This document shows, piece by piece, positions 23,984 through 40,418 of a stretch of 49,491 bases of DNA. The translations under genes and the position numbers were made by a program. This stretch comes from Gemmatimonadota bacterium. GTDB lineage: Bacteria; Gemmatimonadota; Gemmatimonadetes; Gemmatimonadales; Gemmatimonadaceae. The number at the start of each line of letters is the position of its first letter. The stretch's first letter is position 1. The notes under the pieces are model-generated. The model made no database searches and had not been told where the DNA came from. It saw only the letters and a list, made by a program, of their open reading frames with translations. Location of the stretch: positions 1 through 49,491 of the forward strand of contig JAJPIM010000012.1 in the NCBI GenBank assembly GCA_021324775.1, read 5' to 3'.

Positions 23984-24229
23984 GCGGAGGACACCTCGCG
24001 AAGCTGGTGAAGACACAAGGAGCCGAGCGATGGACAGGTCATGGGGCTCACCGGTGTTAACGGGAGTGGCTCAATCGGCGCGGCACGGGCCGTCGTCCGC
24101 CCGGCTCTATCGGATTCTTGCTGAATGTTAGGAATTGCTCCCTTTGTCGTTCGAGCCACGTCTGACGTACACGATCTGGCTCGTCCGGTGCTACCAAGGA
24201 CTACGGATTAACGGACATTACCTGATGAT

Positions 24230-24248
24230 GAGATTCCGTGAGATTCCG
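24230..24248. repeat. Short direct repeat upstream of a lipoprotein gene
   Basis: GAGATTCCG occurs twice with a 10-base period (24230-24238 and 24240-24248), 44 bases before ATG 24293. One helical turn between the copies would put a bound regulator on the same DNA face. No protein is known to bind it. Confidence 0.45.
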
Positions 24249-24292
24249 GATGATCCCTGACGTCGCCGTGCCGCAATGAGCGAGGAACTGTC

Positions 24293-24736
24293 ATGACTCT
24301 CCGTCGGTCAACATGGACGATCCCTTCCTTGGTCGTCGTCGCGAGCGCCGTTGGACTCGCCTGTTCCAGCACGGGCCCGAAGCTGAGTCCTGGCTCGCTG
24401 GCAGGCTCGTATACGCTGGCAATGGTGGCCTTCGTCAACTCCAGTGGCAGCTTCAGCTCGTCACCGCCGCAAGCCAGTGGCGTGTTAAAGTTGACCAAAT
24501 CGACCTACAAGGTGCTCGCTGAAAGTGATACAGGCCTCAAAGGCGTCCCGGATACCCTCGCTTCGGATAGCGGGACCTATGTGGTCAGGGGCTCGATCCT
24601 CGTCGAGACCTCGGCGACGGGACAATCTGCCGACACGGCGACGGCCTCGCTGCGCGCCAACAACGACACCTTGGACTTGAACGTTACGGCGCCCGCGAGT
24701 GCGGTGGCGAGTTACGTCTGGGTTAGAACCCAATGA
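24293..24736 (+). CDS. Small hypothetical lipoprotein, beta-rich
   Basis: A 147-residue protein with a lipobox (VGLACSS, Cys 24) and a good ribosome site (GAGGAA, 5 bases before ATG). The mature part is Ser/Thr/Gly-rich and alternates short strands: GSYTLAMVAFVNSSG, SGVLKLTKSTYKVL, SGTYVVRGSILVE and DTLDLNVTAPASAV. The pattern (GxYxL ... G ... L ... D ... G-x-Y ... I ... DTLxL) is like lipocalin-like small barrel lipoproteins seen in these phyla. The function is unknown. It stands alone between two minus-strand peptidase genes, converging on the M28 gene with 72 bases between stops. Confidence 0.75.
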   Translation: MTLRRSTWTIPSLVVVASAVGLACSSTGPKLSPGSLAGSYTLAMVAFVNSSGSFSSSPPQASGVLKLTKSTYKVLAESDTGLKGVPDTLASDSGTYVVRGSILVETSATGQSADTATASLRANNDTLDLNVTAPASAVASYVWVRTQ

Positions 24737-24808
24737 CTACGCCACCGAGCCAAACAGCCATCGGGCGGCGCTGAACAACTTGGGCGGCCGCGGTGGCCAC
24801 CCGGCGAC

Positions 24809-26542
24809 TCATTGGACACAGGCCGCGTGCGGGTCACGCGGTTTCGCGTGATCGACGACGGGCCGGTGGCTCATGTTCGCGACGGCGACAGCCAGGTCTC
24901 TCACGTATCTGACCACGCGGGCGTAGTGCGCGTAGTCGATCAACTGGGGCTCATCGGTGATCTGGTGGTAGTCGGGGTGGCCGCCGGTCGAGAAGAACGC
25001 GATCGGGATGCCATACCGGGCGTATTCCCAGTGATCGCTGCGGCAGTAGTACTGGTGGGGATCGCCGTCGGCGTCGAACTGGTAGTTGAAGGCGAAGGGC
25101 ATGGGCTGGCGCTTGTTGACTGACTCCACACTGTCGCCAAGCTCCGTCGAGAGCCGGCGCGCGCCGATGACCTCGAGGTAGCGAGGTCCGCCACCCGGGA
25201 GATCGGCCGAATCGCCGCGTCCGATCATGTCGATATTCAACTCGGTCACGAGCGAGTCGCGAGCGACCGTGGGGTGGTCGGTGAACCAATCGGAGCCGAG
25301 GGTGCCGAGCTCCTCGCCGGTGTGCCAGATGAAGAGGATGGATCGTTTGGGGCGTGGGTGAGCCGCTGCGAGGGCTTGCGCGATCTCGAGGAGTGCCACC
25401 GATCCCGTACCATCGTCATCCGCGCCGTTGTTGACCGAGTCCGGGCGTGGGCTACGGAGACGGCGGACGCTGTCCCGAGCCGCGGCGTAGGCCGCGGCGA
25501 TAGCCGGCGTGATCGAGTCGGGCGGCCCTTCGACGCCCTCGCGGCGGGCGATCCGGTTGAACACGAGGACCGAGTCGTGATCGACCGGGTGATCGATCAT
25601 CCCGATGTGATCGTTGTGGGCACCGATCACGACGAACTCGCCCGCGAGTGTGGGGTCGCTGCCGGGGAGAATGCCGATCACGTTGCGCGCGGGGTACGGG
25701 GTGGGCCGATCCTCGACGCTGGCGCGCAGCGTGACCATGCCGCCCGTGGCGCCGATGGAGAGCGCGTCCGGGCTACCGTGAAAGATGCGAGTCGCCACGG
25801 CTGTCGTGACGTAGAGATACGCGGGGACGGCAGCGACAGACGAACTGGCCGGGACGTCCGGCTTCAGCGTCAAGCTCGACCCCGTCTTGAACACATCGAG
25901 CAGGCCCTGCGGAATATCATCCAAGCGGGTGACCATGAGCGCGGCCGCCCCAGCGTACCGACTGGTAACCCCTGCGCGGGAGAAGGCGCCGGGCCATTGG
26001 TCTGGTGGTGCGGCGGTGAACACCACGACCTTGCCGACCGTCCGATCCGGGGCGATGAGCGCCGACGAGTCGCGGCCGAGCGTGCCGCCGTAGACCGCAG
26101 TGGCGTGCACATCGGCCGGCGCGCCGGGGCCTTGATCACGGATCGCGAAGTCGCGCCACGGCGTGAGCGGTGCGCCATCGACCGCCGCGGCCAGAGACGC
26201 GTCAAATTGGCGCCGAACGAGGGGGATCGTCTGGAAATACGTGCCGCCGTCGCCAGACGGCCGGAGGCCGATCTGTCGCGCTTGGGCCGCGATATAGTCG
26301 GTGCCTTTGACATTGCCGATGGTACCGGCCGCGCGCCCTTGCATCGAGTCATCGGCAAAGACATACAGGCGGCTCATGAGATTGCCCTCCGTGATCCCTG
26401 CGGAGGTGGGTTGAGCCGCGTATTTGAGCGGCAGCTCGCCTCGCGTGGCGCCGGCCGCCGGTGCCGGTCCTTCCGAACCCGACTGGCGGCAGGCTGCGAC
26501 GAGCCACAATACGGCGACGGCACTGACGATCCGGACCGCCAT
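24809..26542 (-). CDS. M28-family zinc metallopeptidase, lipoprotein
   Basis: A 577-residue protein with a lipobox (LWLVAACRQ, Cys 18) and GAGG about 9 bases before ATG 26542. A PA-like insert domain lies in the middle (GKVVVFTAAPPDQWPGAFSRAG). The M28 metal ligands appear in order: VIGAHNDHIG, NNGADDDGTGSVALLE, WHTGEELGTLGSDWF with the catalytic Glu, ELNIDMIGRG, and the final His in GGHPDYHQITDEP. This layout fits aminopeptidases and Q-type peptidases of the family that act on peptides in the periplasm. It is anchored to a membrane by its lipid. It is divergent from an alpha/beta hydrolase gene at 26908. Confidence 0.9.
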   Translation of the reverse strand: MAVRIVSAVAVLWLVAACRQSGSEGPAPAAGATRGELPLKYAAQPTSAGITEGNLMSRLYVFADDSMQGRAAGTIGNVKGTDYIAAQARQIGLRPSGDGGTYFQTIPLVRRQFDASLAAAVDGAPLTPWRDFAIRDQGPGAPADVHATAVYGGTLGRDSSALIAPDRTVGKVVVFTAAPPDQWPGAFSRAGVTSRYAGAAALMVTRLDDIPQGLLDVFKTGSSLTLKPDVPASSSVAAVPAYLYVTTAVATRIFHGSPDALSIGATGGMVTLRASVEDRPTPYPARNVIGILPGSDPTLAGEFVVIGAHNDHIGMIDHPVDHDSVLVFNRIARREGVEGPPDSITPAIAAAYAAARDSVRRLRSPRPDSVNNGADDDGTGSVALLEIAQALAAAHPRPKRSILFIWHTGEELGTLGSDWFTDHPTVARDSLVTELNIDMIGRGDSADLPGGGPRYLEVIGARRLSTELGDSVESVNKRQPMPFAFNYQFDADGDPHQYYCRSDHWEYARYGIPIAFFSTGGHPDYHQITDEPQLIDYAHYARVVRYVRDLAVAVANMSHRPVVDHAKPRDPHAACVQ

Positions 26543-26907
26543 GGGAGTAACCTCGCGCAACACGTGATGCGCCCAGACAACGTCCATCGGCGCGGTGCTG
26601 TCCACTGCGCCGTGTGCGACGGCGGTATAAATAGCCGCCGTGCGACGTGGCCGTCAGCCGTCGAAGCAGCTACACGCTGTACGTTTGCACAACACTGACG
26701 TTGCCGGTTGTTGCACGTCGTCACCACAGGGATCCGCCCAACCTCCACGACGGCAACACTTCATTTTGCCGGCCGCGGACCCGCGCCCGTGTTGGTTTCA
26801 TGCAAGACCACATGACGGCGGGCGGGCATCATCAGCGATCAGAATGCCGGGCCACTCCGGCGGCGGCAGTTGTCACCCCAGATCTGGCCAGCACCCGGCC
26901 CTCCCTC
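26543..26907. other. 365-base divergent intergenic region
   Basis: The gap between the M28 gene (minus) and the alpha/beta hydrolase (plus). An open frame continues upstream of ATG 26908 as far as 26647, but it is Arg/His-rich and lacks a signal peptide, so I treat it as non-coding. I saw no clear promoter boxes or repeats here. Confidence 0.45.
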
Positions 26908-27882
26908 ATGGCACACGCGGCACAGTACGTCGTGCGCCTGGCGCTCGTGATGAGCAGCCTGGTGCCACTCACCAGTCAACCGCAGAGCGTCCACCATCCA
27001 GCGGGCGCGTTCGTCACGATATCGGGAAAGCGGATCTGGTACGAGAGTGAGGGGACCGGCGATCCGCTGATCCTGCTGCCCGGGGGGCCGGGCGGCTCAC
27101 ACGACTACTTCCATCCGTTCTTCTCGCGTCTCCGCGGGGCCTTTCGCGTGATCTACTTCGACCCCTTTGGTACGGGGCGGTCCGGCCGGTCAACGAACAT
27201 CAAGGACTACAGCTTGGCGGGTGAGATCGAGGAGATCGAGGGGCTGCGCAATGCGCTGGCGCTCGGCCGGATCAATCTCCTGGGACATTCCTACGGCGGT
27301 GTACTAGCGCAGGCCTATGTGGAGCGCTACCCGGGGTCCGTCAAGCGACTGATTCTGTCCAACGCCCTGGTGACGGCCGCCGCGTGGAACGAGACGAACG
27401 CGCACGCGAATGCCGAGACCAAAGAGTTCTTTCCGGAAAACACCGACCAGATGGCCCAACTGCAGGCGCAGGGTGCCGGATCGATGTCCCCGGAGATGGC
27501 CAAGGCATCGCCTGATCCGGCGAAGGTGACCGCGCACTTTTTCTTCTACGACCGCAGCAACGCGCACTATATCGTTTTCAACGACACCACCTTCAATCCG
27601 GAGGTTTCGAGCGCAATCGGCGGCGACAACATGGACGTGACGGTCGGCGGCGACCTGGCGCATTTCGACTTCCGGAATACGCTTCGATCCCTCCGTGTGC
27701 CGATCCTCATCATGGCAGGGCGAGAAGACGGGGTCGTCCTCCCGCGTCTCGCGCAGGAACTGCGGCGGGCGGCGCCCCAGGCGGAATTCGTGATGTTCGA
27801 GCGCAGCGGCCACTATCCGTTCATCGAGGAGACCGGCAAGGTGATGCATGTGATCACCAATTTCCTGCGAGGTCCTGGCTAG
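26908..27882 (+). CDS. Secreted alpha/beta hydrolase, proline iminopeptidase-like
   Basis: A 324-residue protein. The N-terminus from ATG 26908 is a signal peptide (YVVRLALVMSSLVPLTSQPQS). The oxyanion segment LLPGGPGGSHDYF and FDPFGTGRSGR are as in proline iminopeptidases (S33). The nucleophile elbow is GHSYGG with Ser 128, the Asp is in AGREDGVV and the His in RSGHYPFIEE. It probably removes N-terminal Pro or acts on small esters or amides. ATG 26800 and 26812 and an open frame back to 26647 exist upstream but would bury the signal peptide. Its context among exopeptidases supports a peptide role. Confidence 0.85.
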   Translation: MAHAAQYVVRLALVMSSLVPLTSQPQSVHHPAGAFVTISGKRIWYESEGTGDPLILLPGGPGGSHDYFHPFFSRLRGAFRVIYFDPFGTGRSGRSTNIKDYSLAGEIEEIEGLRNALALGRINLLGHSYGGVLAQAYVERYPGSVKRLILSNALVTAAAWNETNAHANAETKEFFPENTDQMAQLQAQGAGSMSPEMAKASPDPAKVTAHFFFYDRSNAHYIVFNDTTFNPEVSSAIGGDNMDVTVGGDLAHFDFRNTLRSLRVPILIMAGREDGVVLPRLAQELRRAAPQAEFVMFERSGHYPFIEETGKVMHVITNFLRGPG

Positions 27883-27912
27883 GCGGGCGTGCTGGTTGTA
27901 CGTGTCGGTCCC

Positions 27913-27935
27913 CCGCCCGCGACGAAACCGGGCGG
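27913..27935. terminator. GC-rich stem-loop, possible terminator
   Basis: CCGCCCG (27913-27919) and CGGGCGG (27929-27935) form a 7-bp stem with a 9-base loop, 30 bases after the iminopeptidase-like stop. There is no T-run on the plus side, so this is a weak call. Confidence 0.35.
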
Positions 27936-28071
27936 CCGGCCCTAACGACCTCGCACATAACTCTGACATAGTGGGAAACCACTTCCGGGTAGCACAGGGT
28001 CGAAACAGCAGGGCAAATTGGTGAGGGATCGAGGGGTCGTGGTCATGCGGGTCACCGAACGGAGCGTACCA

Positions 28072-29415
28072 ATGCACATGTCGAGAGCGTGGCACCCGGG
28101 CCATCTCGTCCGCGTGGCTTCACGGCTCAGTGGCGGGATCGTCCTGGTCGCGTGCGTCGCCGCACAGGCGTGGGCGCAGCCACATCCCGCGCAGGGTCCC
28201 ATGCCCGGGGGGCGTGAAGAGTTGCTGTCCATCACGCACGTGCCCATCGCCTCAAAGGCGTTCCACACGGTTCACGACGTGTCGGTGTGGCTTCCGAGCC
28301 AGAGAGCACCGGGAGTGCGGTACCCCGTGTTGGTGTTTCCGGACGCCGAAGAGTTAGGGCAGTTCCGTTCGGCGCTCGCGAACGTGCAGTTCCTGATCGA
28401 CCGGCAGCTCATCCCGCCGATGATGGTGGTGGGTATCCCCTACCTCAAGAATCGGCGCCACGAGTTGACCCCGGCAGCGACCGGCTCCACCGCGCAGGTC
28501 TATCCCATGGCGGGTGGTGCCGACGTGACGTTGCAGTTCATCTCGGATGAGGTGCTGCCCTGGGTCGACGCGCACTACCCGACCCTGCCGGTGCGCATCC
28601 TCGCGGGGCATTCTCTGGGCGGGTTGTTCGCGCTGTATGTGATGGCCACGCATCCGGACGTCTTCCGTATCGTGATCGCAATGAGTCCGGTTCTCAGGTG
28701 GAACGACGGCACGTTGAGTACACAGGTGGCGGCGAGCATCGCGGGAGACACGAGCCGTGAGCGCACGCTGTTCGTCACGAGTGGGGGGCGAGAGCCCAGC
28801 ATCGACGAACCGACTACGGTGTTTGCGACGCGGTTGCAGGCGCTGCTCGACAGCGCGCCGAACGCGCGCCTGCGGTTCGAGCGACGGAGGTACCCGCTCG
28901 ACATCCACGAGATGACCCCGCTGGACGGCCTTGTGGACGGGCTCCGAATGGCCTACGACCCGATCGTCGTACCGATCGACTCGGTGGTGACCGCGCTCTC
29001 GGATCACCACGTGGAGGATACGGCGACCATCAGTGAGAGCGTGCGGACGCTCGAATCGCGCTATACGGCGAACGCAGCCTCGCTGGGCGTCCCGGCGCCG
29101 TTTCCCGAGACGCCGCTCGATATCCTCGGCAGCTACAGTTTCCAGGTCAAGCACCCTGACCTTGCGGTGCGGCTGTTCCGCGAGAACTGCGACCGGTACC
29201 CGCACTCATCGAACGCGCACGAGAGTCTGGGCGAAGGACTCGTCGCGGTGGGGGACACCGTGGCAGGAGTCGCGCAGTTGCGGCAGAGTATCGCGATCGC
29301 CAAAGTCGCAATGGGCGCCGCGAAATCAATCCTGGTCATGGCGCATGAGCGCGACGTCAGGGATGCGGCGGTCGCACAACTCCACGCGTTGCATCAGGAT
29401 GTGCCGGGAGCGTAA
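28072..29415 (+). CDS. Secreted esterase of the enterochelin-esterase/IroE type with helical-repeat C-terminus
   Basis: A 447-residue protein. GGAG lies 7 bases before ATG 28072, and a signal peptide follows (GGIVLVACVAAQAWAQ). The alpha/beta fold includes VRYPVLVFPDAEE, PPMMVVGIPY and the nucleophile elbow AGHSLGG with Ser 181; the His may lie in LDIHEMTP. After the catalytic domain, residues from about 355 on (KHPDLAVRLFRENCDRYPHS and ESLGEGLVAVGDT) look like TPR-like helices. This combination occurs in esterases related to Fes/IroE. The substrate is unknown; a carbohydrate or siderophore ester is possible. It converges on the lectin-like gene at 29429 with only 13 bases between the stops. 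Confidence 0.83.
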   Translation: MHMSRAWHPGHLVRVASRLSGGIVLVACVAAQAWAQPHPAQGPMPGGREELLSITHVPIASKAFHTVHDVSVWLPSQRAPGVRYPVLVFPDAEELGQFRSALANVQFLIDRQLIPPMMVVGIPYLKNRRHELTPAATGSTAQVYPMAGGADVTLQFISDEVLPWVDAHYPTLPVRILAGHSLGGLFALYVMATHPDVFRIVIAMSPVLRWNDGTLSTQVAASIAGDTSRERTLFVTSGGREPSIDEPTTVFATRLQALLDSAPNARLRFERRRYPLDIHEMTPLDGLVDGLRMAYDPIVVPIDSVVTALSDHHVEDTATISESVRTLESRYTANAASLGVPAPFPETPLDILGSYSFQVKHPDLAVRLFRENCDRYPHSSNAHESLGEGLVAVGDTVAGVAQLRQSIAIAKVAMGAAKSILVMAHERDVRDAAVAQLHALHQDVPGA

Positions 29416-29428
29416 CTGACGTGGACCG

Positions 29429-30634
29429 CTATGGATCGAGGCGGCAGGTAAATCCCCACCCGGCAGTGGATTCGGTGACGGCGAGGAGAAGTTCGTTCTT
29501 TCCTTTCTTCAGTGGCAAGAACACCGCGTCCGCGAACGGATAGATGTATCCGAGATCGTGGGGATCGCGGAACCCCATGCTGTTCCGGCCCTCGTACAGC
29601 GGATGGCCGTTGAGATAGACGACCACATCGTCGCTATATCCGATCCACATCCTGCGGACTTCGTCCCGATCGGCCACCACCGTGGTCCGCGCAAATACAA
29701 CCTGGCTTTCGGGAGACCACCCGACGGCTCGATCCGGCGCGGGGTGCTCGGGCTCGACATTCGGATCCTGGCGATACCGTCCGATCAGCACCAACCCTTC
29801 TCGCTCAGCGTGAACCGGATCCCAGTGCAGCGCACGCCCACTGGGGTAGACATCGGGGGTGGCGTCAGCGACCGGGAGTGCCTGTGACAGCGACCAGCCT
29901 TCGGTTATGGCTCCCTTGGCAAATGTGTGAACGCGGGTGAGCTGGTAGGTTGCCGAATCGGGCCGGTAATGGATGTTGCTGATGTAGCCACCTCCGCCGC
30001 GCCCCCAGAATCCGATCGTGCCTGAGTCGCTGCCCAACGGCAAATCGTGCACTTCGATCACCGGGGCCGATACGGTATCGAAGTACAACGACGCGACGAG
30101 TCCTTTGATGACGACTCGCAAATGCACCCAGCGATCCTGTGGAAAATCCGGTGCGGCGTTGTACTCCGGACCTGGAAAGAGCTGCCAGGCGTTCATCTGC
30201 AGGAAAGAGGGCGCGTATTGGACGGTGGCGTCGGGGTTATGCGGGCGAAAGAAGATGACCTCGTATGCATCCGGAGACGCGACGTGAAATGCGAGACCGA
30301 AGAAAGCACCCTGAGAATCCGCCGCGACATCAGCCTCCAGCGTACCGTTCCGGAGAGCGACCCCAGTGGCGTACGAGAACCCATCGGTTACGCGCAGGCT
30401 CGGACGACCGAGGTGGGTCACGAAACGGGCGCTGTCGTGTTTGGCGCGCCGAAGGCGGCTCTGCTGCCAGATCCATCGTGCCGGCAGAAGCGGGACAGCG
30501 CTGTCCTCCGCCGCCAGGCCTGTTGGCTCAGTGCCCTGGGCGGCTTGAGCGGCGCACGGTCGCTCACCACCAATGGCCAGGAGGCCAATCAGGCACGCTT
30601 GCAGCGCACCCGTCAGTCGTCGCATTAACGGCAT
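29429..30634 (-). CDS. Secreted concanavalin-A-like protein, type A, copy 2
   Basis: A 401-residue secreted protein with a signal segment (ACLIGLLAIGGERPCAAQ). The N-terminal two thirds read as a ConA-like jelly roll: GTLEADVAADSQGAFFGLAF, YEVIFFRPHNPD, DRWVHLRVVIKGLVASLYFD and GTIGFWGRGGGGYISNI. The last about 100 residues are a second beta-sandwich with YSDDVVVYLNGHPLYEGRN and LKKGKNELLLAVTES, like sugar-binding jelly rolls attached to glycosidases. No catalytic domain is visible. It is closely similar along its length to the gene at 31496. It lies 28 bases after the type B gene at 30663, so each A gene follows a B gene. Probable roles are carbohydrate binding or surface adhesion. Confidence 0.75.
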   Translation of the reverse strand: MPLMRRLTGALQACLIGLLAIGGERPCAAQAAQGTEPTGLAAEDSAVPLLPARWIWQQSRLRRAKHDSARFVTHLGRPSLRVTDGFSYATGVALRNGTLEADVAADSQGAFFGLAFHVASPDAYEVIFFRPHNPDATVQYAPSFLQMNAWQLFPGPEYNAAPDFPQDRWVHLRVVIKGLVASLYFDTVSAPVIEVHDLPLGSDSGTIGFWGRGGGGYISNIHYRPDSATYQLTRVHTFAKGAITEGWSLSQALPVADATPDVYPSGRALHWDPVHAEREGLVLIGRYRQDPNVEPEHPAPDRAVGWSPESQVVFARTTVVADRDEVRRMWIGYSDDVVVYLNGHPLYEGRNSMGFRDPHDLGYIYPFADAVFLPLKKGKNELLLAVTESTAGWGFTCRLDP

Positions 30635-30662
30635 CTCCGGATGTTATGGGACGCGGCTACCA

Positions 30663-31427
30663 CTACGCGGTGCCCGCGGGTGTCACGACCATGTGCGAGA
30701 AATATCCTTTCGTGCCTGAGCCAATCCAGAGTCCGATCTTCCCTCGTGATGCACCGGACTTGAGGTCGTCGATCACGAGACAGGGCTGCAGCGCATCGTT
30801 CACAAACAGACGGGCGTGCCGTCCGCTGACCACGACGCGCAGGTGTGTCCACGCACCGGCTGAGAGGTCGACGTATGATTCGTACTGACCCGGCGACTCC
30901 TTGCGTAGCCGATACCACGGATAATCCGGTTCGGCTTCGTACTGGGTCGAGTGATTGCGGCGGAGCTGGTCGTCCGCTCGCCCGTTGGTCGGACGAAGAT
31001 ACACGTTGTCAAATCGAGACCCATCGGCGGAGCTCCTGAATACCAACCCGATGAAGGCGCGGTCGGAAGAATCGGCGTCTGGCGCGAGCGTACCCGCGAC
31101 CCAGAGCTCAATCGTGCCATCGGCGAACGTCAGCGAGTCCAGGAGAGCGACCGACTCGAGCGCATTCGGATCGGTGCCCGGTGGCTGGGTGAGTTCAACC
31201 GCTTTCCGCCCCCGATAGACCGCAGCACGAGCGCGGGTGCCGATCAGTGTCAGGCCCTGTATCCCTTCCAGCGGTACAACGATCGGCGGCGTCGGGATCA
31301 GACGAAATGATTGCTCGCCGGCGCCGCGGCCGGGGAGTGTGCGGCCCGCAAGTGTCAGCGACAGTACCACGCAGGTCGCGGCGTTCAATGATCGCCGCGT
31401 GTACATGAATTCAGACGGTGACAACAC
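30663..31427 (-). CDS. Secreted concanavalin-A-like protein, type B, copy 2
   Basis: A protein of about 254 residues with a single ConA-like domain: DGTIELWVAG, FIGLVFRSS, NVYLRPTNGRADDQLRRN, QYESYVDLSAGAWTHLRVVV, ARLFVNDALQPCLVIDDL and GKIGLWIGSG. The start is unclear: GTG 31427, TTG 31424 (AGGAG at suitable spacing) or ATG 31406. The N-terminus is a signal segment (NAATCVVLSLTLAGRTLPG). It matches the gene at 32852 block by block, including DDQL-x-RN-x-x-TQYE and SRGKI-x-LW. It sits 68 bases after the type A gene at 31496 and 28 bases before the next type A gene. No catalytic residues are evident. Confidence 0.73.
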   Translation of the reverse strand: MLSPSEFMYTRRSLNAATCVVLSLTLAGRTLPGRGAGEQSFRLIPTPPIVVPLEGIQGLTLIGTRARAAVYRGRKAVELTQPPGTDPNALESVALLDSLTFADGTIELWVAGTLAPDADSSDRAFIGLVFRSSADGSRFDNVYLRPTNGRADDQLRRNHSTQYEAEPDYPWYRLRKESPGQYESYVDLSAGAWTHLRVVVSGRHARLFVNDALQPCLVIDDLKSGASRGKIGLWIGSGTKGYFSHMVVTPAGTA

Positions 31428-31495
31428 TCCTCCGGTGCCGAGGCAGGTTCAGGATCGTCGGGCCCGCCGGACAGACGGGAAGTTTTCTCGCGCGA

Positions 31496-32662
31496 TTACG
31501 GCGGGTCGAGCCGGCAAAAGAATCCCCAACCGGCCGTTGCTTCACTCACTGCCAACATCAGTTCGTTCTTGCCCTTCTTGAGGGGCAGATAGACCGCGTC
31601 CGCGTACGAATTCACATATGCCGACCCGCCCAGCTCGCGAAACTGCATGGTATTCCGTCCAGCGTACAGCGGCCGGCCATTGAGGTACACGACGACGTCG
31701 TCGCTGTATCCGATCCACATTTTACGGACCACATCGCGGTCGGAGGTGAGTGTCGTCCGGGCGAACACGACTTGCATGCCTGGTGACTCCGGCACAGGCC
31801 GGTCGGGGAGTGGCTGCGGCCCTTCCACGTTAGGATCGCGGCGATATCGCCCGATGAGCACTATCCCCTCGCGCTCTGCGTGCACGGGTTGCCAATGCAG
31901 TGCATGCACATCGGGATAAGTCGCCGGATCCCGCTCGGACACCAGTGCGGCGTCCGATATCGACCATCCCTGAGTGATGGCGCCGGGCAGGAAGGAAGTC
32001 TCCGGCGTCGACGAGTAGGATGTCGTATCCGGGCGATACTGAATGTTGGAGATGTATCCGCCACCGGCGCGGGCCCAAAAGCCGATGCTCCCGGCGACGC
32101 TGCCCAGCGGCAGATCGTGCACCTCGATCGTCGGCGTCGTCGCCGTGTCGACATATACGGATGCCACCAGTCCTTTGATCACGATCCGCAGGTGGACCCA
32201 CCGGTCCTGTGGAAAGCGGAGCGACGCGATGTAGTCGCCTGTGGAATAGAACTGCCACGCGTTCATCTGAAAGAAGGAGGGTGCGTATTGTACGGCGTAG
32301 GTGGGATCGTTAGGCCGAAAGAATACGACCTCGTATTGATCGGGCGGCGTGGCCGCGTGGAATGCCAGGCCGAAGAAATTGCCGCCTTTGTACGCGGCAA
32401 CGTCGGCTTCGAGTGTGCCGTTCTTGAGTGTGACACCCTTGGCTAACGCAAAGCCATTGGGGAGGAAGAGGCTCGGCCGGCCGAGATGAGATTCGAACCG
32501 CGGGTTGGTGTCGGCCGTGTGGTCTCGGCGATACAACCGTTCAATCGTCCAGCGATCGGGTGTCAACGGGACGCTAATCGTTCCGGCAGTTGTGGTGTCC
32601 TGTGCAGCAGCGTGGTACCCGGGCCATAGGAGGCCGGCAAGAAGGCAGCGCGTGAGCCTCAT
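31496..32662 (-). CDS. Secreted concanavalin-A-like protein, type A, copy 1
   Basis: A 388-residue protein with a short signal peptide (LLAGLLWPGYHAAAQ). The domain order equals that of the copy at 29429: a ConA-like part (GTLEADVAAYKGGNFFGLAF, YEVVFFRPNDPT, DRWVHLRIVIKGLVASVYVD, GSIGFWARAGGGYISNI) and a C-terminal sugar-binding-type sandwich (YSDDVVVYLNGRPLYAGRN, LKKGKNELMLAVSEATAGWG). The two copies differ mostly in the N-terminus and in the linker of about 40 residues between domains. It lies 189 bases after the type B gene at 32852 and 68 bases before the next B gene. The role is probably binding of an extracellular glycan, inferred only from the fold. Confidence 0.75.
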   Translation of the reverse strand: MRLTRCLLAGLLWPGYHAAAQDTTTAGTISVPLTPDRWTIERLYRRDHTADTNPRFESHLGRPSLFLPNGFALAKGVTLKNGTLEADVAAYKGGNFFGLAFHAATPPDQYEVVFFRPNDPTYAVQYAPSFFQMNAWQFYSTGDYIASLRFPQDRWVHLRIVIKGLVASVYVDTATTPTIEVHDLPLGSVAGSIGFWARAGGGYISNIQYRPDTTSYSSTPETSFLPGAITQGWSISDAALVSERDPATYPDVHALHWQPVHAEREGIVLIGRYRRDPNVEGPQPLPDRPVPESPGMQVVFARTTLTSDRDVVRKMWIGYSDDVVVYLNGRPLYAGRNTMQFRELGGSAYVNSYADAVYLPLKKGKNELMLAVSEATAGWGFFCRLDPP

Positions 32663-32851
32663 GGTTGGACCTGGTAGTGGGGCAGTCGCAAGTGTGTGTG
32701 CCGTGGTCGCGGTGATGGGTCACTGTACATTCGCAGACGGTTGCTGTCCGAGGATGAGGCCAGTCCTCGCCTAACCGTCTTGGAAGTTTTGCCCCGTTCC
32801 GCGATCGCATACATCATGGCGGGTTCCTGGTGTGGGCGCGTTACTGGTCGC

Positions 32852-33664
32852 TCACTGTGTGGCGCGGACAGCCAGGTTGGAGAAGTACGCGTCGCTGCTC
32901 ACGTGGGTCCACAGCGCGATCTTGCCCCGGCTAATCCCGTGTTTCAGATCGGTCACCACCAGGCAGGGTTGCGCGGCACGATTGACGTATAAACGCGCGG
33001 TCGTCCCCGACACTTCGATCTTGAGGTGTGTCCAGGCGCCAGGTGCCAGATCTACGTAGGACTCGTAGACGCCGGGGCTCTCGGCGCGCAGACGCCGCCA
33101 AGCGAAGTCCGGATCCGACTCATACTGGGTGGCGCGATTCCGGAACAGCTGATCGTCCACACGCGAGTTTTCAGGGCGGATGTAGAAGCGTTCGGCGTTC
33201 TTGTCCTGGATACGAAACGATATCCCGACAAACCCCTTGAACCCGCTGGTATCGATGACTGTCGAATACCCGGGCCGCCGAGCGCCTGCAACATCGACCT
33301 CGATGGTGCCGTCCTGGAAATCCGACTCATCCAACACCGCCACCATTTCCTCGTTGTGTCCATTCTCATGGCCTGCGGGGGGCGTCAGGTGCAGGGCGCG
33401 ACGCCCGCGGTAGTCGGTCCATCGTGCGTCGGTGTTGATCAGCGTGAGTTTCGTCTTCGCGTCGAGGGTAAGCCTCGAACCCGAGTTCCCAGCGCCCTGC
33501 CCCGAAACCGTCGCGAGCGGCAGCCACAGGACGAGAGCACACGCGAACTGCGCGGACACTCTGATAGCCCGGCGTGCGCCCAGCTCCAACAGCTCTGTCG
33601 CGACAGTGTGCGGTATTGGCATGGCAGCGGGGAATGGCGGTAGCAGTCGATGGGTGATTGGCAT
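32852..33664 (-). CDS. Secreted concanavalin-A-like protein, type B, copy 1
   Basis: A 270-residue protein from ATG 33664, which has GGAG 6 bases upstream. The signal segment is about residues 35-57 (FACALVLWLPLATVSGQ). The single ConA-like domain reads DGTIEVDVAG, FVGISFRIQD, RFYIRPENSRVDDQLFRN, VYESYVDLAPGAWTHLKIEV, ARLYVNRAAQPCLVVTDL and GKIALWTHVS. The same blocks occur in the copy at 30663. It is the first gene of the four-gene lectin-like run and is divergent from the CocE-type hydrolase at 33964. The spacing suggests one transcript for all four genes, with a possible extra promoter in the 189-base gap after it. Confidence 0.75.
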   Translation of the reverse strand: MPITHRLLPPFPAAMPIPHTVATELLELGARRAIRVSAQFACALVLWLPLATVSGQGAGNSGSRLTLDAKTKLTLINTDARWTDYRGRRALHLTPPAGHENGHNEEMVAVLDESDFQDGTIEVDVAGARRPGYSTVIDTSGFKGFVGISFRIQDKNAERFYIRPENSRVDDQLFRNRATQYESDPDFAWRRLRAESPGVYESYVDLAPGAWTHLKIEVSGTTARLYVNRAAQPCLVVTDLKHGISRGKIALWTHVSSDAYFSNLAVRATQ

Positions 33665-33705
33665 CCGAGTCTCCGGCGTCCGTGCGTAGGCCCACCGACT
33701 GTACA

Positions 33706-33780
33706 CAGCCCCTGTGGGCTGGGGTATCCTTCAGCCCACCAATGACACGGTTCTAACGTACTGCCGGTGTCACGCCGGCA
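33706..33780. promoter_or_regulatory. Two small hairpins in the divergent B1/CocE intergenic region
   Basis: CAGCCC-4-GGGCTG at 33706-33721 and TGCCGG-7-CCGGCA at 33762-33780 lie in the 299-base gap between the lectin-like run and the CocE-type gene. They could be operators for either direction or leader hairpins. Short GC-rich stems occur by chance in DNA of this composition, so confidence is low. Confidence 0.25.
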
Positions 33781-33963
33781 GACCGGGCGCGGCGTACCGC
33801 TGCGCTTTGCCGGGGGGAGCCTGATGTGGGCCGGCGATGCCTGCCCCGGCATGCGTTTCGTGCGGCTGCCGTGTCCGCACCGTGTGAAATATGGCACGCA
33901 AGGGGTGACGCGAACGTTGACGCCGCAAGAAATTGGTGGGCGCCTCCCCACTATCCCCTTCGA

Positions 33964-35793
33964 ATGCCTCGTCAGCCGTCGTTTTACACGTTGTGTGCGC
34001 TGGCCATGGCGCTGATCGCGCCCGGCCCGCGGAGCGCGGCCCAGGATTCCGCCGCTGCCCCCTACCCGCGACCGCCGGGAGCGTACGAGGTCGAGGTCGA
34101 ACGCAACATCATGGTGCCGATGCGGGATGGTACTCAGCTGGCCACTGATATCTACCGGCCAAAGGATGTCGCTGGCCGTCTGCCGACCATCCTCATTCGC
34201 CTTCCCTACAACAAGTCCGCCTATCGCTTCGGGGCCATCGACCCGGCGCAATTCTTCGCCTCGCATGGGTATGCAGTCGTGGTGCAGGACGTCCGGGGCA
34301 AGTTCGCGTCTGAGGGCGAGTTTCGCGTGTATCAGGGCGAGATGACGGATTGGACGGATATGTTCGAGTGGGCCGCTGGGCAGCCGTGGTCCACTGGGCA
34401 GATCGGGACGTACGGTTGTTCGTATCTGGGCGAAGGCCAACTGATCGCCGCCCAGCAGCGGAACGCCCATCACATCGCCGCTATCCCGCAGGCGGCGGGC
34501 GGGAATCTCGGACGTGTCGGGCGGCTCCGAGAGTTCTGGGGCTCCGTTGAAGGCGGGGCGTTCTCGCTCTCGCTCAACTTCAATTGGATGCCGGTTTTTG
34601 CTTCGGTAGACAAAGGGGCACGTCCGGCGCCGAAGGTCGACCTCGCGTCGTTTCTTCGGACCCTGCCGCTCATCGACATGGCGGACCGCGCTGGCTCCCC
34701 CTCATGGGACTGGCGGAATTTCCTGGAGCGGCCGCCCAATGACCCATGGTGGGATGCACAGGGCTATTTGACAGAAGCGGACAGCACCGGCGTCGCTGCA
34801 CTGCAGGTGACGTCCTGGTTCGACTTCGCTGAGGAGGCGCTGATCGCGGCCAATATCTTCCGGACGAATGCGATCAATGACCGTGCACGCACGGGACAGT
34901 ATGTCATCATCTCTCCGACAACACACTGCATCTCAGAACGGGCGTCTCGTGAAACCGTCGTTGGGGACCTGCCAGTCGGCGACGCCCGCCTCCACTACTG
35001 GGACATCTATCTTGCCTGGTTTGATCGCTGGCTACGCGGTAACGTCCACGCGATCGACTCTCTCGCGCACTTCCAGTACTACACGATCGGCCGCGACCGG
35101 TGGCAGTCGTCAGACACCTGGCCAGTCAAGGGCATGCACGAGACATCGTTCTATCTCCAGAGCAACGGGCATGCGGCCACGGCGACGGGGGACGGGCGTA
35201 TCAGTTTGACCCCTCCAACGCGCGACCACCCCGATTCGTTCACCTACGATCCGGCTGATCCCGTGCCGTCGCGCGGAAGCGCGGTCTGCTGCACCGGTAA
35301 CCCGAAGGATCAGCCAGGTTCGTTCGACAACGCCGACATCGAGCAACGGCCCGACGTGCTTGTGTATACGAGCGACCCGTTGGCCGATGGAATGGAACTG
35401 ACGGGTTCAATGCGCGCCGAGGTGTATCTCAGCTCCGATGTGCTCGATACCGATGTGACGGTGAAGTTGCTCGACGTGTTTCCGGATGGGCGAGCCATGA
35501 ACATGCAGGACGGCATCACGCGCGCGCGGTGGCGGGACGGCTTTGACACGCCGCACATGATGGAGCGGGGCAAGGTGTACGAGGTCCCGGTTACCCTACG
35601 CGCGACGTCGTGGTACCTTCGCCCTCAGCACCGGCTGCGAGTTGAGATCTCGAGCTCAAACTTTCCGCGATTCGACCGGAATCTCAACACGGGGGGCCAC
35701 AACTACGACGAGACCACGTGGCGGACGGCGCACAACGTGATCCATCATGCGCCTGGCAGCCTGTCGCGGGTGATTCTCCCTGTCGTACGTTGA
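33964..35793 (+). CDS. Secreted CocE/NonD-family (S15-like) hydrolase
   Basis: A 609-residue protein. A signal peptide (FYTLCALAMALIAPGPRSAAQ) fixes ATG 33964; the open frame runs back to 33826 without a better start. The catalytic alpha/beta domain includes MVPMRDGTQLATDIYRP, VVVQDVRGKFASEGEF and the nucleophile GCSYLGE with Ser 153. The Asp is probably in SWFDFAEE and the His in SPTTHCIS. The C-terminal jelly roll typical of X-Pro dipeptidyl-peptidases and CocE is present (GSMRAEVYLSSDVLDTDVTV, LRPQHRLRVEISSSNFPRFD). It may be an acyl-peptidase or ester hydrolase. A gene for an S41 peptidase begins 19 bases after its stop, suggesting one transcript. Confidence 0.88.
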   Translation: MPRQPSFYTLCALAMALIAPGPRSAAQDSAAAPYPRPPGAYEVEVERNIMVPMRDGTQLATDIYRPKDVAGRLPTILIRLPYNKSAYRFGAIDPAQFFASHGYAVVVQDVRGKFASEGEFRVYQGEMTDWTDMFEWAAGQPWSTGQIGTYGCSYLGEGQLIAAQQRNAHHIAAIPQAAGGNLGRVGRLREFWGSVEGGAFSLSLNFNWMPVFASVDKGARPAPKVDLASFLRTLPLIDMADRAGSPSWDWRNFLERPPNDPWWDAQGYLTEADSTGVAALQVTSWFDFAEEALIAANIFRTNAINDRARTGQYVIISPTTHCISERASRETVVGDLPVGDARLHYWDIYLAWFDRWLRGNVHAIDSLAHFQYYTIGRDRWQSSDTWPVKGMHETSFYLQSNGHAATATGDGRISLTPPTRDHPDSFTYDPADPVPSRGSAVCCTGNPKDQPGSFDNADIEQRPDVLVYTSDPLADGMELTGSMRAEVYLSSDVLDTDVTVKLLDVFPDGRAMNMQDGITRARWRDGFDTPHMMERGKVYEVPVTLRATSWYLRPQHRLRVEISSSNFPRFDRNLNTGGHNYDETTWRTAHNVIHHAPGSLSRVILPVVR

Positions 35794-35812
35794 CCGTCTT
35801 ACTACCTCGGTG

Positions 35813-37204
35813 ATGCGAGCGACAGCGCGAAGGTCAATCAGGTTGGTTGCGACTCGTATACGTCTCGTAGCCTTCGTTCTTGTTGCCGGTCCAGCGGCCG
35901 CTCAGTCTGCCGCGACGGCACGGTGGTCACCGGATCCCCAGACGCACCGTGTGGTCGTCGATACGATTGCGGCGCAGTTGCGCCGCCATTATGTCGACGC
36001 CGACACGGGCCAACTCATTGCCGAGTACATACTGCGGCGAGCGGCGGCCGGCACCTACGACACGATAACCGATCCGTATCGTTTGGCGGCCCGCTTGACC
36101 GCCGACCTTGGCACCGTCAATCACGACGGGCACCTGTCGGTCCACTATGCTCCTGATATGCCGACGTATCCGGTCGGACCAGAGGGGCTCAAACTCGGCG
36201 GCCCTCCAGGGCCGCTGCCACCAGAGGTTGTGGAGGAGGAGCGCTCGGCGCATTACGGGATTGCTCGCCTCGATGTCCTGCCCGGCAATGTTGGTTACAT
36301 GGACCTGCGCAGCTTCCCAGAGTCCCCAGCGGCGTACGATGCCATAGTAAACGCCTTGCGATATCTCGAGCCGACCGACGCAATCATCATCGACCTCCGT
36401 CGCAACGGAGGTGGATCGGGCGAGATGTCCAACTTTCTCATCAGTCATTTCGTGGGACCCGACTCGACCCTGTCGCTGCGCGTGATCAACCGGTCGGGCC
36501 ACGAGCAGATCGATCGCTGGACGCTCGGGAAGGTGCCGGGACCGCGCCGGCCGACGGTGCCGCTCTTTCTCCTCACCTGCCGGGCGACGGGGTCGGCCGC
36601 CGAAGATTTTGCCTTTGTCCTGTCGAACCTCGGCCGGGCGACGGTCGTCGGGGACCGTACGTATGGCGCGGGCCACAACAACGCGTTCCTCGCCTCCGGG
36701 TACGGATTCGTGACGTCGATCTCATTTACGCGGGTCATGGACCCGCGAACCGGTAAAGAATGGGAGGGGGTGGGTGTCCGCCCGACCCTCCCTGCCGAAC
36801 CGGAGCAGGCGCTTCTCGTTGCACACGCGACGGCGGTCGAGCGACTTGCCGCCTCGGCGACCGGGCCGCGGCGCAAGGAATACATGGCAATCCACGAGGC
36901 ACTCGAAGCGGAGCTGCATCCGCGAGTTGTGCCACCGCTGATGCTCGAGCGCTATGCCGGCCGCTATAGCGGTGGCCAGTCCATCGCGTTCGTCGATGGC
37001 CGGCTGGCCTTTCGGCCACGTGCTGGGTTCCTGTCCGAGCCTCTCGTCGCGATCGGAGACTCCGTCTTTGCCCGTCACGCGAGCGATCGGATCATCTTTG
37101 CCCACGACGCCGCTGGCGCAGTCGTGATGAGCGTCGTGACGCTGAACCGGGGCACCCTCTCGTTTCGGCGGATCGACGGGGAGGCCGAGACGCCAGCGGG
37201 GTAG
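35813..37204 (+). CDS. Secreted S41-family serine peptidase
   Basis: A 463-residue protein with a signal segment (RLVAFVLVAGPAAAQ). An N-terminal helical part (VVVDTIAAQLRRHYVD) precedes the S41 core: NVGYMDLRSFPES, AIIIDLRRNGGGSGEMSN and TCRATGSAAEDFAFVL with Ser 261 as nucleophile. The core ends at GVGVRPTLP. About 80 C-terminal residues (MLERYAGRYSGGQSIAFVDG) form a small beta domain like those attached to other secreted hydrolases. No PDZ domain is seen. ATG 35813 is preceded directly by an in-frame GTG. It follows the CocE-type gene by 19 bases. It has the same core as the peptidase at 12478 but is longer and not part of a sigma operon. Confidence 0.87.
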   Translation: MRATARRSIRLVATRIRLVAFVLVAGPAAAQSAATARWSPDPQTHRVVVDTIAAQLRRHYVDADTGQLIAEYILRRAAAGTYDTITDPYRLAARLTADLGTVNHDGHLSVHYAPDMPTYPVGPEGLKLGGPPGPLPPEVVEEERSAHYGIARLDVLPGNVGYMDLRSFPESPAAYDAIVNALRYLEPTDAIIIDLRRNGGGSGEMSNFLISHFVGPDSTLSLRVINRSGHEQIDRWTLGKVPGPRRPTVPLFLLTCRATGSAAEDFAFVLSNLGRATVVGDRTYGAGHNNAFLASGYGFVTSISFTRVMDPRTGKEWEGVGVRPTLPAEPEQALLVAHATAVERLAASATGPRRKEYMAIHEALEAELHPRVVPPLMLERYAGRYSGGQSIAFVDGRLAFRPRAGFLSEPLVAIGDSVFARHASDRIIFAHDAAGAVVMSVVTLNRGTLSFRRIDGEAETPAG

Positions 37205-37291
37205 TCTGCCAAACTCTCTTCACGACGGCGTCACACTGGTCCGGGCATGCTTGCCTATCCAGGCGCGCGAGGCCGAGTTCCGGGGCGGCCG

Positions 37292-38698
37292 CTAAGGCTC
37301 AGCGGAGTCTTGGATATGGGCGATCGAATCGAGTTGCGTACGGAGCGCCGACGTATCTCCGGCGATTGCGATCGTGAGGTGGCCGCGCGACAGATAGGCT
37401 GCTGCCAACCGTTGTACCTCAGCTGGGGTGACGCCAGCCCCTGCTACCGCGTCTGGGCCAGCGGCCGGCCCGCCACGATGGAGCGCATCGTCAAGCTCTA
37501 TCTCATTGAGCCGTCCGGATCGGCTCGCGCGCGCCAACAGCGTGCGGCCTGCGACATAGCGCTCAGTCGCCTCGACTTCGTCGGCTGTGGGAGGCGTTGT
37601 GGCAAGCCGTTCGATTTCCCGGACAATCTCTCGTAAAGCGGGCCATGCCACGTTCGACGCCACGTCGGCAGACTCCGCCCAGTACGCATTACCCGAGGGA
37701 GTTGCCGTCAGTGTGCTGCCAGGTCCGTACGCATAGCCTTTAGCCTCCCGGATATTCTTCGTAATGCGGGAGCTGAGACCACCACCCAGCAAGACGTCCA
37801 CAATACGAAAGGATTCAAAGTCGGGGGTGCCCGCGGCTGGCCCGCGCGCCCCGACCACGATGGCCACCTGCTTCGCGCCAGGCCGATGGATGATGCGCAG
37901 CATCGACGGGACCGGCGCTGCGGGCGGTTGGTCATGCTCTCTGGGGGCGCCGGCGCGCCAATCGGCGAATGCCGCGGTCGTGGCGCGGCGCACGTTGCCG
38001 TAGTCGTATCGGCCCACGACGTAAACGGTGAGTGGAGCCGTACGCACTCGCGTGTCATAGTATCGCTGCATCGCGGCGACGCTCGCCGTCTGGCTATCCC
38101 CGGCCGCGCACTCGCTCCGAAACTCGTTACCCGGGAATAGCATCGACTCGAAGGCATGGATGGCGGCGGAGTCCACGCCAGCCTCCGCAGCGACTGTTGC
38201 CTGCGCCGCATCGCGGGCCGCTTGTTGGACGCCTGGCGGGTCCAGTGGTGGGTGCGTCACGACGCTCCCAAGCAGCGCCACCGCTGCCGGCACGAACGAT
38301 TGGAGAACGGCAGTTGATAGCTCGATGCGCTCCGGCGCCAAGGTGACCGTGACTGCTCCGCCCATGTGCGCGAGCGAGTCAGTGTATCTGACACCGCGGA
38401 GGGAGGCGGAGCCCTGCCCAAGCAGGCTGGCCATCACGTTGGCGCGTAGGCAGTCTGCGGATCCGTCGGCGCCCGTCCTGATGACCACTCGCACCAGTGC
38501 CTGTGGCGAGCCACTGAACGGCAGGACGATGAGGTGAACGCCATCTGCGATCCGGGCGTCGCCGGGGCGTGCGACCGCTGGCATCGCGATCGGCCCGACA
38601 ACGGGGCGATCTCGTGTCTCGCCAGCCTGGGCGCGAAGGCCCGGCGCCCATAGGCTCGCCGCGATGGCGAACGCTGCGAGCATGAGTGGCCGGATCAT
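37292..38698 (-). CDS. M16-family peptidase-like protein lacking the metal site (non-catalytic partner)
   Basis: A 468-residue secreted protein (signal MLAAFAIAASLWAPGLRAQ) with two M16 half-domains. The position of the HxxEH site reads LRANVMASLLGQGSASLRG, with no His or Glu ligands. The C-terminal half keeps the substrate-binding Arg/Tyr segment SSRITKNIREAKGYAYGPGS. This is the pattern of the non-catalytic subunit in two-protein M16 peptidases. Its ATG overlaps the stop of the active-looking M16 gene (TGATG at 38696-38700), so the two are translationally coupled and probably form a dimer. Confidence 0.86.
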   Translation of the reverse strand: MIRPLMLAAFAIAASLWAPGLRAQAGETRDRPVVGPIAMPAVARPGDARIADGVHLIVLPFSGSPQALVRVVIRTGADGSADCLRANVMASLLGQGSASLRGVRYTDSLAHMGGAVTVTLAPERIELSTAVLQSFVPAAVALLGSVVTHPPLDPPGVQQAARDAAQATVAAEAGVDSAAIHAFESMLFPGNEFRSECAAGDSQTASVAAMQRYYDTRVRTAPLTVYVVGRYDYGNVRRATTAAFADWRAGAPREHDQPPAAPVPSMLRIIHRPGAKQVAIVVGARGPAAGTPDFESFRIVDVLLGGGLSSRITKNIREAKGYAYGPGSTLTATPSGNAYWAESADVASNVAWPALREIVREIERLATTPPTADEVEATERYVAGRTLLARASRSGRLNEIELDDALHRGGPAAGPDAVAGAGVTPAEVQRLAAAYLSRGHLTIAIAGDTSALRTQLDSIAHIQDSAEP

Positions 38699-40212
38699 CA
38701 GTGAGAGTCCGCCGGTGCGGGGGTGTGAGCTGCGGGCGGGCGGCGGATATAGACGGTCCGTTGTGCGCGGCTCAGGAAAGCCCGCGCCGTTTCCTGGATA
38801 TCGGCTGCGGTGATGTTATCCAGGGCAGCTTCGACGCCGTTGAGTTTGCCCGGATCATCATCGAATAGGGCGTACGACGCCAACAGATCTGCCTTGCCGA
38901 ATCCCGAGAGGTAGTCGAGGTCACTGTACAGCGAGACCTTGGCTTTGCGCCGCGCGAGTTCAAGATCGCGATCGCTCAGGGCCGTCGATGCCAGGCCGTC
39001 GACCGCGCGCTGCACCGAATCGACGATGGCATGGGCGCGATCGGACTGGCTGTAGGCGACACCGACGGTCCAGAGCATCGGACCGTTGTAATTGAAGAAA
39101 TTGCCCTGCAGGTTGGTGCCGCCGAACACGGCGTCGGCCAATCCCCCATCGCGGACCAGGCTGCGTCCGAGCCGGCTGTCGCCTCCCTGCAAGACGATTT
39201 GATCGATGATCGCCATGGTATAGAATGCTTTGCTGCCACGCGGGGGCATGTGGAACGCGACGGCCAGGACCGGGCTCTTTGCCAACGAGTCGATGCGCTC
39301 GCCCGTGCGCTCCTCAGTCTGCGCCGGCTCAGAGAAGTCGGGCCGTGCTGGTTCCGGACCGCGAGGAATGGGTCCGAAATATGTTTGAATCCAGCGCCGG
39401 GCCTCTGCTGGCCGGAAATTGCCGGAGAGGACAAGCACCGCGTTGTTGGGGGTGTAATAGGCGGCGTGAAAGCTCCTGACATCTTCCAGTGATGCCGCCT
39501 CCAGTCCGTCAGGCAGTCCGCGGAAGTTGTGCGCATTCTGCCAATTGCGGTTGGCGAATTGGGGGACATCGAGCCATGGAAACCCGCCGTCCGGTTGATT
39601 GATATAGGAGAACCTGATCTCGGCCTCGACGATGTTCTTTTGCCGCCGTAGTGCGGAGTCGTCGACCACGAGCCCGCCCATCCGGTCCCCCTCGGCCCAC
39701 AACATGAGCTGGAGCGCCGGCGATGGGACAATCTCGAAATAATCCGTGAAGTCGAATCGGGTATTGCCGTTGAGCGTCCCTCCGTTGGACTCGATCAAGT
39801 GCAACAATTCGCCCGGGCGCAAATGGGTCGACCCCTCGAACATCAAGTGCTCGAAGAGGTGCGCGAATCCCTCATGGCCTGGCGGCTCCAATCGCTGGCC
39901 GATCCCGTAGTAGACCCCGACGACGACAACCGGCGTTGACGTGTCGGGCGCGAGCACGATCTTGAGGCCGTTCGATAGCCGATAGTAGTCGATCGCGATC
40001 GTGGGATAGCGACCGGGGGACGCACTTGGCAGCCGTAGATCGCCCGGCCGGCCAATCGGCCCTTGACCGTGCACTGGCACTGTCCCGAGCAGAAGGAGGC
40101 ACGTCGAGGCTCGTATCACGTGCGCGGTGCGGCGCCTCAGGGTTGGGGCGCGCCGGCGTCCGGGATGGCTGTACCGCAACAAGCGCCGGGATGAGCGAGC
40201 GGAACGCTGCAT
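38698..40212 (-). CDS. M16-family zinc metallopeptidase (catalytic subunit)
   Basis: A 504-residue protein from ATG 40212, which has GAGG 6 bases upstream; an earlier ATG at 40245 is possible. The signal segment is VIRASTCLLLLGTVPVHGQ. The inverted zinc motif HLFEH lies at 118-122 and its third ligand Glu at about 198 (NIVEAEIRF), giving HxxEH-x75-E. The C-terminal half has SRLGRSLVRDGGLADAV, the partner of the Arg/Tyr pocket, though without the usual Tyr. It would degrade short peptides in the periplasm together with the coupled non-catalytic protein at 37292-38698. The N-terminus before the signal segment is Arg-rich and long, which is odd. Confidence 0.9.
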   Translation of the reverse strand: MQRSARSSRRLLRYSHPGRRRAPTLRRRTAHVIRASTCLLLLGTVPVHGQGPIGRPGDLRLPSASPGRYPTIAIDYYRLSNGLKIVLAPDTSTPVVVVGVYYGIGQRLEPPGHEGFAHLFEHLMFEGSTHLRPGELLHLIESNGGTLNGNTRFDFTDYFEIVPSPALQLMLWAEGDRMGGLVVDDSALRRQKNIVEAEIRFSYINQPDGGFPWLDVPQFANRNWQNAHNFRGLPDGLEAASLEDVRSFHAAYYTPNNAVLVLSGNFRPAEARRWIQTYFGPIPRGPEPARPDFSEPAQTEERTGERIDSLAKSPVLAVAFHMPPRGSKAFYTMAIIDQIVLQGGDSRLGRSLVRDGGLADAVFGGTNLQGNFFNYNGPMLWTVGVAYSQSDRAHAIVDSVQRAVDGLASTALSDRDLELARRKAKVSLYSDLDYLSGFGKADLLASYALFDDDPGKLNGVEAALDNITAADIQETARAFLSRAQRTVYIRRPPAAHTPAPADSH

Positions 40213-40418
40213 CGCGTTCCTCGCCGCGGTCATGATGGGAATCATAGATGTGTGCTACGGTGCGAGTTGCGGACAGGCGGCGGGGCCGCCTCACACGCCC
40301 GTTCTATGAGTAGTAACCCCTGGTGGGCTTGGAGCCGGGGTCCCTGATGTTTCACACAATCTGAACACAAAACGCCCCAGGCGCGAGGAACGCGCACACA
40401 GTTGAGAATCCCGTATCA

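Follow-up and report, generated by a model that had tools for sequence, protein, structure and literature searches.

Alternating genes for predicted exported, CBM66-like proteins in a Gemmatimonadaceae genome

Four consecutive minus-strand genes in a contig of a soil-type Gemmatimonadota bacterium (JAJPIM010000012.1 of assembly GCA_021324775.1; its 49,491 analysed nucleotides are here called the window) alternate between two types, B and A, and raise the question of whether such an order records the copying of one B-A unit and, with it, a partnership between the two products. The first-pass annotation had proposed both, describing secreted lectin-like proteins whose genes were duplicated as a pair and which might form a heteromeric glycan-binding surface complex. 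Its observations held and its interpretation did so only in part. We confirmed the open reading frames in the order B1-A1-B2-A2, from 33664 to 29429, and found all the quoted motifs (DDQL-x-RN, GAWTHL, SRGKI-x-LW and YSDDVVVYLNG) in the translations. The features are:

32852..33664, minus strand: B1, predicted exported single-domain CBM66-like protein, 270 residues (open reading frame, structure model, signal-like N-terminus in the translation)
32855..33487, minus strand: CBM66-like domain of B1, residues ~60-270 (model range 65-270 aligned to PDB entry 4azz)
31496..32662, minus strand: A1, predicted exported two-domain protein, 388 residues (open reading frame, structure model)
32021..32578, minus strand: N-terminal CBM66-like domain of A1, residues ~29-214 (match to 4azz, homology to B)
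31499..31966, minus strand: C-terminal beta-sandwich of A1, residues ~233-388, of no Pfam family (model strands 233-385)
30663..31427, minus strand: B2, predicted exported single-domain CBM66-like protein, 254 residues, GTG start (open reading frame)
29429..30634, minus strand: A2, predicted exported two-domain protein, 401 residues, recent paralogue of A1 (open reading frame, tree)

The start codon of B1 is uncertain, lying at 33664 or nearby, and its reading frame also opens at 33706. The intergenic gaps are 189 nucleotides (nt) from B1 to A1, 68 from A1 to B2 and 28 from B2 to A2, and the genes are probably co-transcribed. A signal-like N-terminal stretch, judged from the translations, is present in all four proteins and suggests that they are exported; nothing was found that would anchor A or B to the surface. 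A1 and A2 are identical at 245 of 396 aligned columns (62%, E 2e-169) and B1 and B2 at 121 of 245 (49%, E 1e-69). Searches of the 4.19 Mb genome with A1 and B2 each gave four matches, all within the cluster, and no further copy of either type.

A and B had been treated as two unrelated families, but B and the N-terminal half of A are homologues (BLASTP E 3e-11 and 1e-14, 27-31% identity), and the four genes thus represent one domain family. Profile comparison of the N-terminal half of A with B covered essentially the whole domain (hhalign probability 99.95, E 6e-38), and an R-P ending one strand, a Q-Y on the next and one tryptophan are near-invariant in both. The arginine of the R-P and the Q-Y pair correspond to R116, Q125 and Y126 in A1 and to R163, Q180 and Y181 in B1. 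Beyond this common domain, A carries an extra C-terminal beta-sandwich (YSDDVVVYLNG...GGWGF), which had no Pfam match in A1 or in six of the seven relatives scanned, the seventh giving one chance-level match. As first described, no catalytic domain was recognised in any of the four proteins with Pfam or NCBIfam: the NCBIfam scan gave no match, and Pfam gave only sub-threshold matches to Laminin_G_3 (PF13385) and PF06439. The Laminin_G_3, or concanavalin A (ConA)-like, superfamily shares the general fold and matches all four proteins weakly, but these lie below its cut-off and the family is too broad to name a function.

Structure models of A1 and B1, built on alignments of 24 and 31 sequences, respectively, had a predicted local distance difference test score of 85.4 and a predicted template modelling score of 0.83 for A1, and of 85.7 and 0.76 for B1. 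For both, the best solved structure was the CBM66 entry 4azz, with 156 residues aligned in each case (A1: Z 20.6, root-mean-square deviation (rmsd) 1.8; B1: Z 20.0, rmsd 2.0), while the next different entries reached Z 17.1 for A1 and Z 18.1, at a poor rmsd of 19.5, for B1. Foldseek likewise paired A with 4azz (E 1.4e-7) and B with 4b1l (E 3.1e-7). The ConA-like, lectin-type character of the proteins is supported, and their N-termini suggest export. CBM66, known from the Bacillus subtilis levanase SacC (PDB 4azz, 4b1l and 4b1m), shares the beta-sandwich fold of B and of the N-terminal domain of A, is likewise non-catalytic and, like relatives of A and B, is appended to hydrolases. It differs in that it forms part of a fructanase or xanthanase, while A and B are stand-alone exported genes with only 14-17% identity to it. 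CBM66 modules are known to bind the ends of fructans and, in one case, xanthan treated with lyase (PMC11002231). Both domains of A are spanned by the alignment to 4jqt (BT3469, a putative glycosyl hydrolase of Bacteroides thetaiotaomicron with function unknown; residues 25-388, 264 aligned, Z 15.8), but the rmsd of 9.2 shows that the domain arrangement differs. Also among the structural matches are lectin-like segments of otherwise unrelated proteins, some of them toxins, which reflect the common fold.

Fusions among the relatives give the domain concrete company; in what follows, L numbers denote loci and G numbers genomes, and genes were called by a simple script. B is fused to a metallo-beta-lactamase-fold hydrolase (PF00753) in L094 and in L093, where two B domains follow, and stands after a serine beta-lactamase domain in L281 (PF00144, 173.6 bits). 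L092 is a B-B fusion, and in L112 B is fused to DUF2911. A follows a polysaccharide deacetylase (PF01522) in an Acidobacteriota genome (L276:328-2484, plus strand) and occurs with an SGL-type propeller that passes the cut-off in L075 and L203 and narrowly misses it in L262. Extra C-terminal stretches of ~257-294 residues are found in the A-type proteins of L199, L203, L205, L259, L261, L262, L264, L266-L268 and L270-L274, and are SGL/NHL propeller-like in the two of these that were scanned (L203 and L262). The long N-terminal extensions of L285, L287, L288 and L289 may be non-coding, and Pfam found no match in those of L285, L287 and L289. Genes for A or B split over two frames were seen at L086:2456-3656, L070:9069-9756, L238:5770-6986 and L213:991-2095, and are either broken genes or sequencing errors.

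We consider it an even call that A and B are exported accessory proteins, CBM66-like and non-catalytic, which bind a ligand for extracytoplasmic hydrolases. B would consist of the CBM66-like ConA-type beta-sandwich alone and A of the same domain plus the C-terminal sandwich of no named family. The CBM66-like domain would bind a ligand outside the cytoplasm, most likely a carbohydrate and probably a glycan end, and A and B would serve secreted hydrolases in trans as their relatives would in cis in the fusions to metallo-beta-lactamase-fold and serine-beta-lactamase-fold hydrolases and to a polysaccharide deacetylase. Several observations weigh against this. Profiles of A and B found no CBM66 chain among all PDB sequences at E<=1, so that the fold is CBM66-like but the domain is no proven member of CBM66. 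ConA-like folds include enzymes, and 3-keto-glycoside enzymes reach Z ~15 against the models. The genes next to A or B, of which 129 of 187 were scanned, showed no clear excess of hydrolases over the genes 3-5 positions away, of which 130 of 346 were scanned and the 25 commonest families listed, and the hydrolase-rich surroundings of the cluster in the window may be due to chance. Those surroundings are the following:

22856-41546: stretch rich in secreted-hydrolase-type genes around the cluster, including DUF5700, M28, two alpha/beta hydrolases or esterases, S15 with PepX_C, S41, an M16 pair and a metallo-beta-lactamase fold
40419-41546, minus strand: the metallo-beta-lactamase-fold gene, of one subfamily with the B-fused hydrolases of L093 and L094 (36 and 34% identity)

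The genome has three strong relatives, among which the latter gene ranks second, and it is therefore a lead only.

One neighbour did recur. DUF2911 (PF11138) occupied nine of the 201 slots at distance 1 from A or B genes and none of the 771 more distant ones. In eight of the nine cases, all from Flavobacteriaceae, A is directly followed by DUF2911, and these eight pairs may represent one event; the ninth, in G043, is convergent. The Gemmatimonadota genome with DUF2911 beside these genes also has the DUF2911-B fusion, and the four DUF2911 matches of the window genome lie on contigs other than that of the cluster. The positions are:

L221, L222, L223, L230, L233, L234, L236 and L237, at ~7.0-8.2 kb: DUF2911 beside A in Flavobacteriaceae
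L067:8882-9775 and L112:7296-9104: DUF2911 in Gemmatimonadota loci

In the open-licence literature searched, a single paper mentions DUF2911, which it lists in a secretome table. We regard it as a speculative, rather improbable extension that A, B and DUF2911 belong to a single uncharacterised extracytoplasmic module spread over many phyla, in which the CBM66-like binders would work together or with DUF2911 and also occur fused to secreted hydrolases, with the C-terminal sandwich of A as a new interaction domain.

The same neighbourhoods bear on another explanation, that the ConA-like domains are adhesion or scaffold modules which bind protein or the cell's own envelope instead of food glycan. 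Consistent with it are the presence of non-sugar binders among ConA-like folds, thrombospondin and baseplate proteins being among the structural matches, the lack of a consistent glycan-degrading neighbour of A or B, and the association of DUF2911, which adjoins A and is fused to B. The closest folds are nevertheless carbohydrate-binding modules and nothing pointed positively to a protein partner, and we hold this explanation to be unlikely.

Less probable still, in our judgement, is that A and B are divergent 3-keto-glycoside hydrolase or eliminase enzymes of family PF06439, periplasmic and acting on oxidised glycosides. PF06439 (3keto-disac_hyd, formerly DUF1080; for example BT2157 3osd, 8tda and 9fbe) has the same fold class as A and B and a weak hidden Markov model similarity to them. 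No other family gave weak Pfam matches as often (E<=0.01 for 26 of the 31 B rows and 12 of the 24 A rows), four relatives (L092, L093, L285 and L287) passed its cut-off, and the 3-keto-glycoside eliminase/hydratase 9fbe resembles both models (Z 15.5 for A1 and 15.2 for B1). Proteins of the family have been linked experimentally to 3-keto sugars (PMC9007349). All four window proteins, however, score below the gathering cut-off of 26.8 bits (A1 14.8, A2 12.4, B1 19.8 and B2 18.0) and show no sign of catalysis, CBM66 fits the models better by ~5 Z units, and domains of the A/B type are appended to other catalytic domains. The only clear PF06439 protein of the genome, at C27:92850-93434 (L302; 156.8 bits), gave no profile alignment with B (probability 0.2) and with A aligned over part of the domain only (79.7%, from a single sequence). 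That protein, which is not closely related to A or B, may itself be a 3-keto-glycoside enzyme.

The CBM66-like reading leaves the alternating order to be explained, and the history of the genes did not follow that of a copied pair. A1 and A2 were sisters with support 100/99 in a tree of 25 A rows, which left out the long-branch L084, L087 and L118; a second A tree was also without L119, L176, L198, L202 and L208, the last four being loci that duplicate G genomes, and without L219-L241 except L225 and L226. B1, by contrast with a split at the same node as A1 and A2, grouped with the B proteins of other Gemmatimonadota genomes in both B trees (support 100/99 and 100/100), the first having 34 rows without L086 and the later one also leaving out L112. 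Many of these partners of B1 come first in a tandem or fusion of two B copies (L091, L092 and L093) or in a convergent pair (L089). A sister relationship of B1 and B2 was rejected by the approximately unbiased (AU) test with P values of 0.00065 (34 rows) and 0.00123 (54 rows). The tests did not reject a grouping of B2 with the second copy in the tandem B pairs (P = 0.103), with Acidobacteriota B proteins (P = 0.364) or with both groups (P = 0.261). By the trees and AU tests, B2 is a fast-evolving B paralogue and not the sister of B1.

DNA similarity between the two halves of the cluster is confined to the genes (68.6% over 1001 nt for A and 69% over 143 nt for B), with none between the intergenic sequences. 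Together with the trees and AU tests, this argues that the B-A-B-A order did not arise by copying one unit once, and the proposed duplication as a pair is contradicted. Identity between A1 and A2 is 0.33-0.40 in the first two 40-column blocks of their alignment and 0.55-0.78 afterwards, with no sharp plateau. Gene conversion between A1 and A2 after a duplication of the whole unit was also considered and set aside, as it would leave the grouping of B1 with the B proteins of other genomes unexplained. In the history that we propose, B1 and B2 would be old paralogues and A1 and A2 the result of a later duplication, and the B1-A1-B2-A2 order would have been assembled in this lineage, probably from a B-A pair like that of two Acidobacteriota described below.

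Both types are widespread, and for the most part they occur apart. At E<=1e-5, A1 matched 49 and B1 matched 50 of 395 genomes of the phylum, A and B cross-matching weakly. Within the family of the window genome, counts sorted from match coordinates gave A in nine, B in 16 and both in five of 179 genomes (in the B2 search, G363 and G244 match A genes only); five is more than the 0.8 expected (hypergeometric P = 3e-4, uncorrected for relatedness and genome size). The genus mates G104 and G107 have neither, and the other four family genomes with both carry A and B on separate contigs. Elsewhere A was found in Acidobacteriota, Myxococcota, Bacteroidota, Ignavibacteriota, Verrucomicrobiota, Pseudomonadota and others (67 named loci). 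The 120 loci outside the window contained A in 92, B in 31 and both in three, at least 2 kb being available on both sides of 74 of the 92 A loci and 22 of the 28 B-only loci. Homologues thus stand mostly apart in other genomes, which is largely the outcome that the first-pass annotation had named as refuting its reading.

Each of the three loci with both has A and B directly side by side on one strand, B preceding A in the Acidobacteriota loci L175 and L226 and A preceding B in G003 (L070, with B in two frames). The A proteins of L175 and L226 are the nearest in the tree to those of the window outside its genome, and the other neighbours of these two loci are mutually unrelated; among 272 Acidobacteriota genomes, the coordinates listed place A beside B only in G455, the genome of L226. 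A rough estimate of chance adjacency is ~0.01 (92 loci x 2 slots x <=15% of genomes with B / ~4000 genes). As three adjacent loci are far above this and the rest are apart, the A-B pairing is real but a minority arrangement. Adjacency exceeds chance within one A subclade and is not the general rule (three of 92 A loci and three of 31 B loci). An obligate heteromeric A-B glycan-binding surface complex, its gene pair duplicated as a unit, would fit the B-then-A order, found twice in the window and again in L175 and L226, and the excess of family genomes with both, but is improbable given the gene histories, the rarity of B near A, the separate contigs, the lack of any A-B fusion in the loci examined and of a surface anchor.

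The cluster is an unnamed CBM66-like family in an unusual gene order. We found no paper on the A-B gene pair in the open-licence literature, where no search was phrased for this pair as such. For the reading of gene order, the locus corrects an attractive but wrong inference, as an alternating B-A-B-A arrangement need not mean a copied B-A unit. For the family, which is widespread and has no name, the fusions point to concrete partners (a metallo-beta-lactamase-fold hydrolase, a serine hydrolase, a polysaccharide deacetylase and DUF2911), and its exported CBM66-like proteins would acquire a role open to testing.

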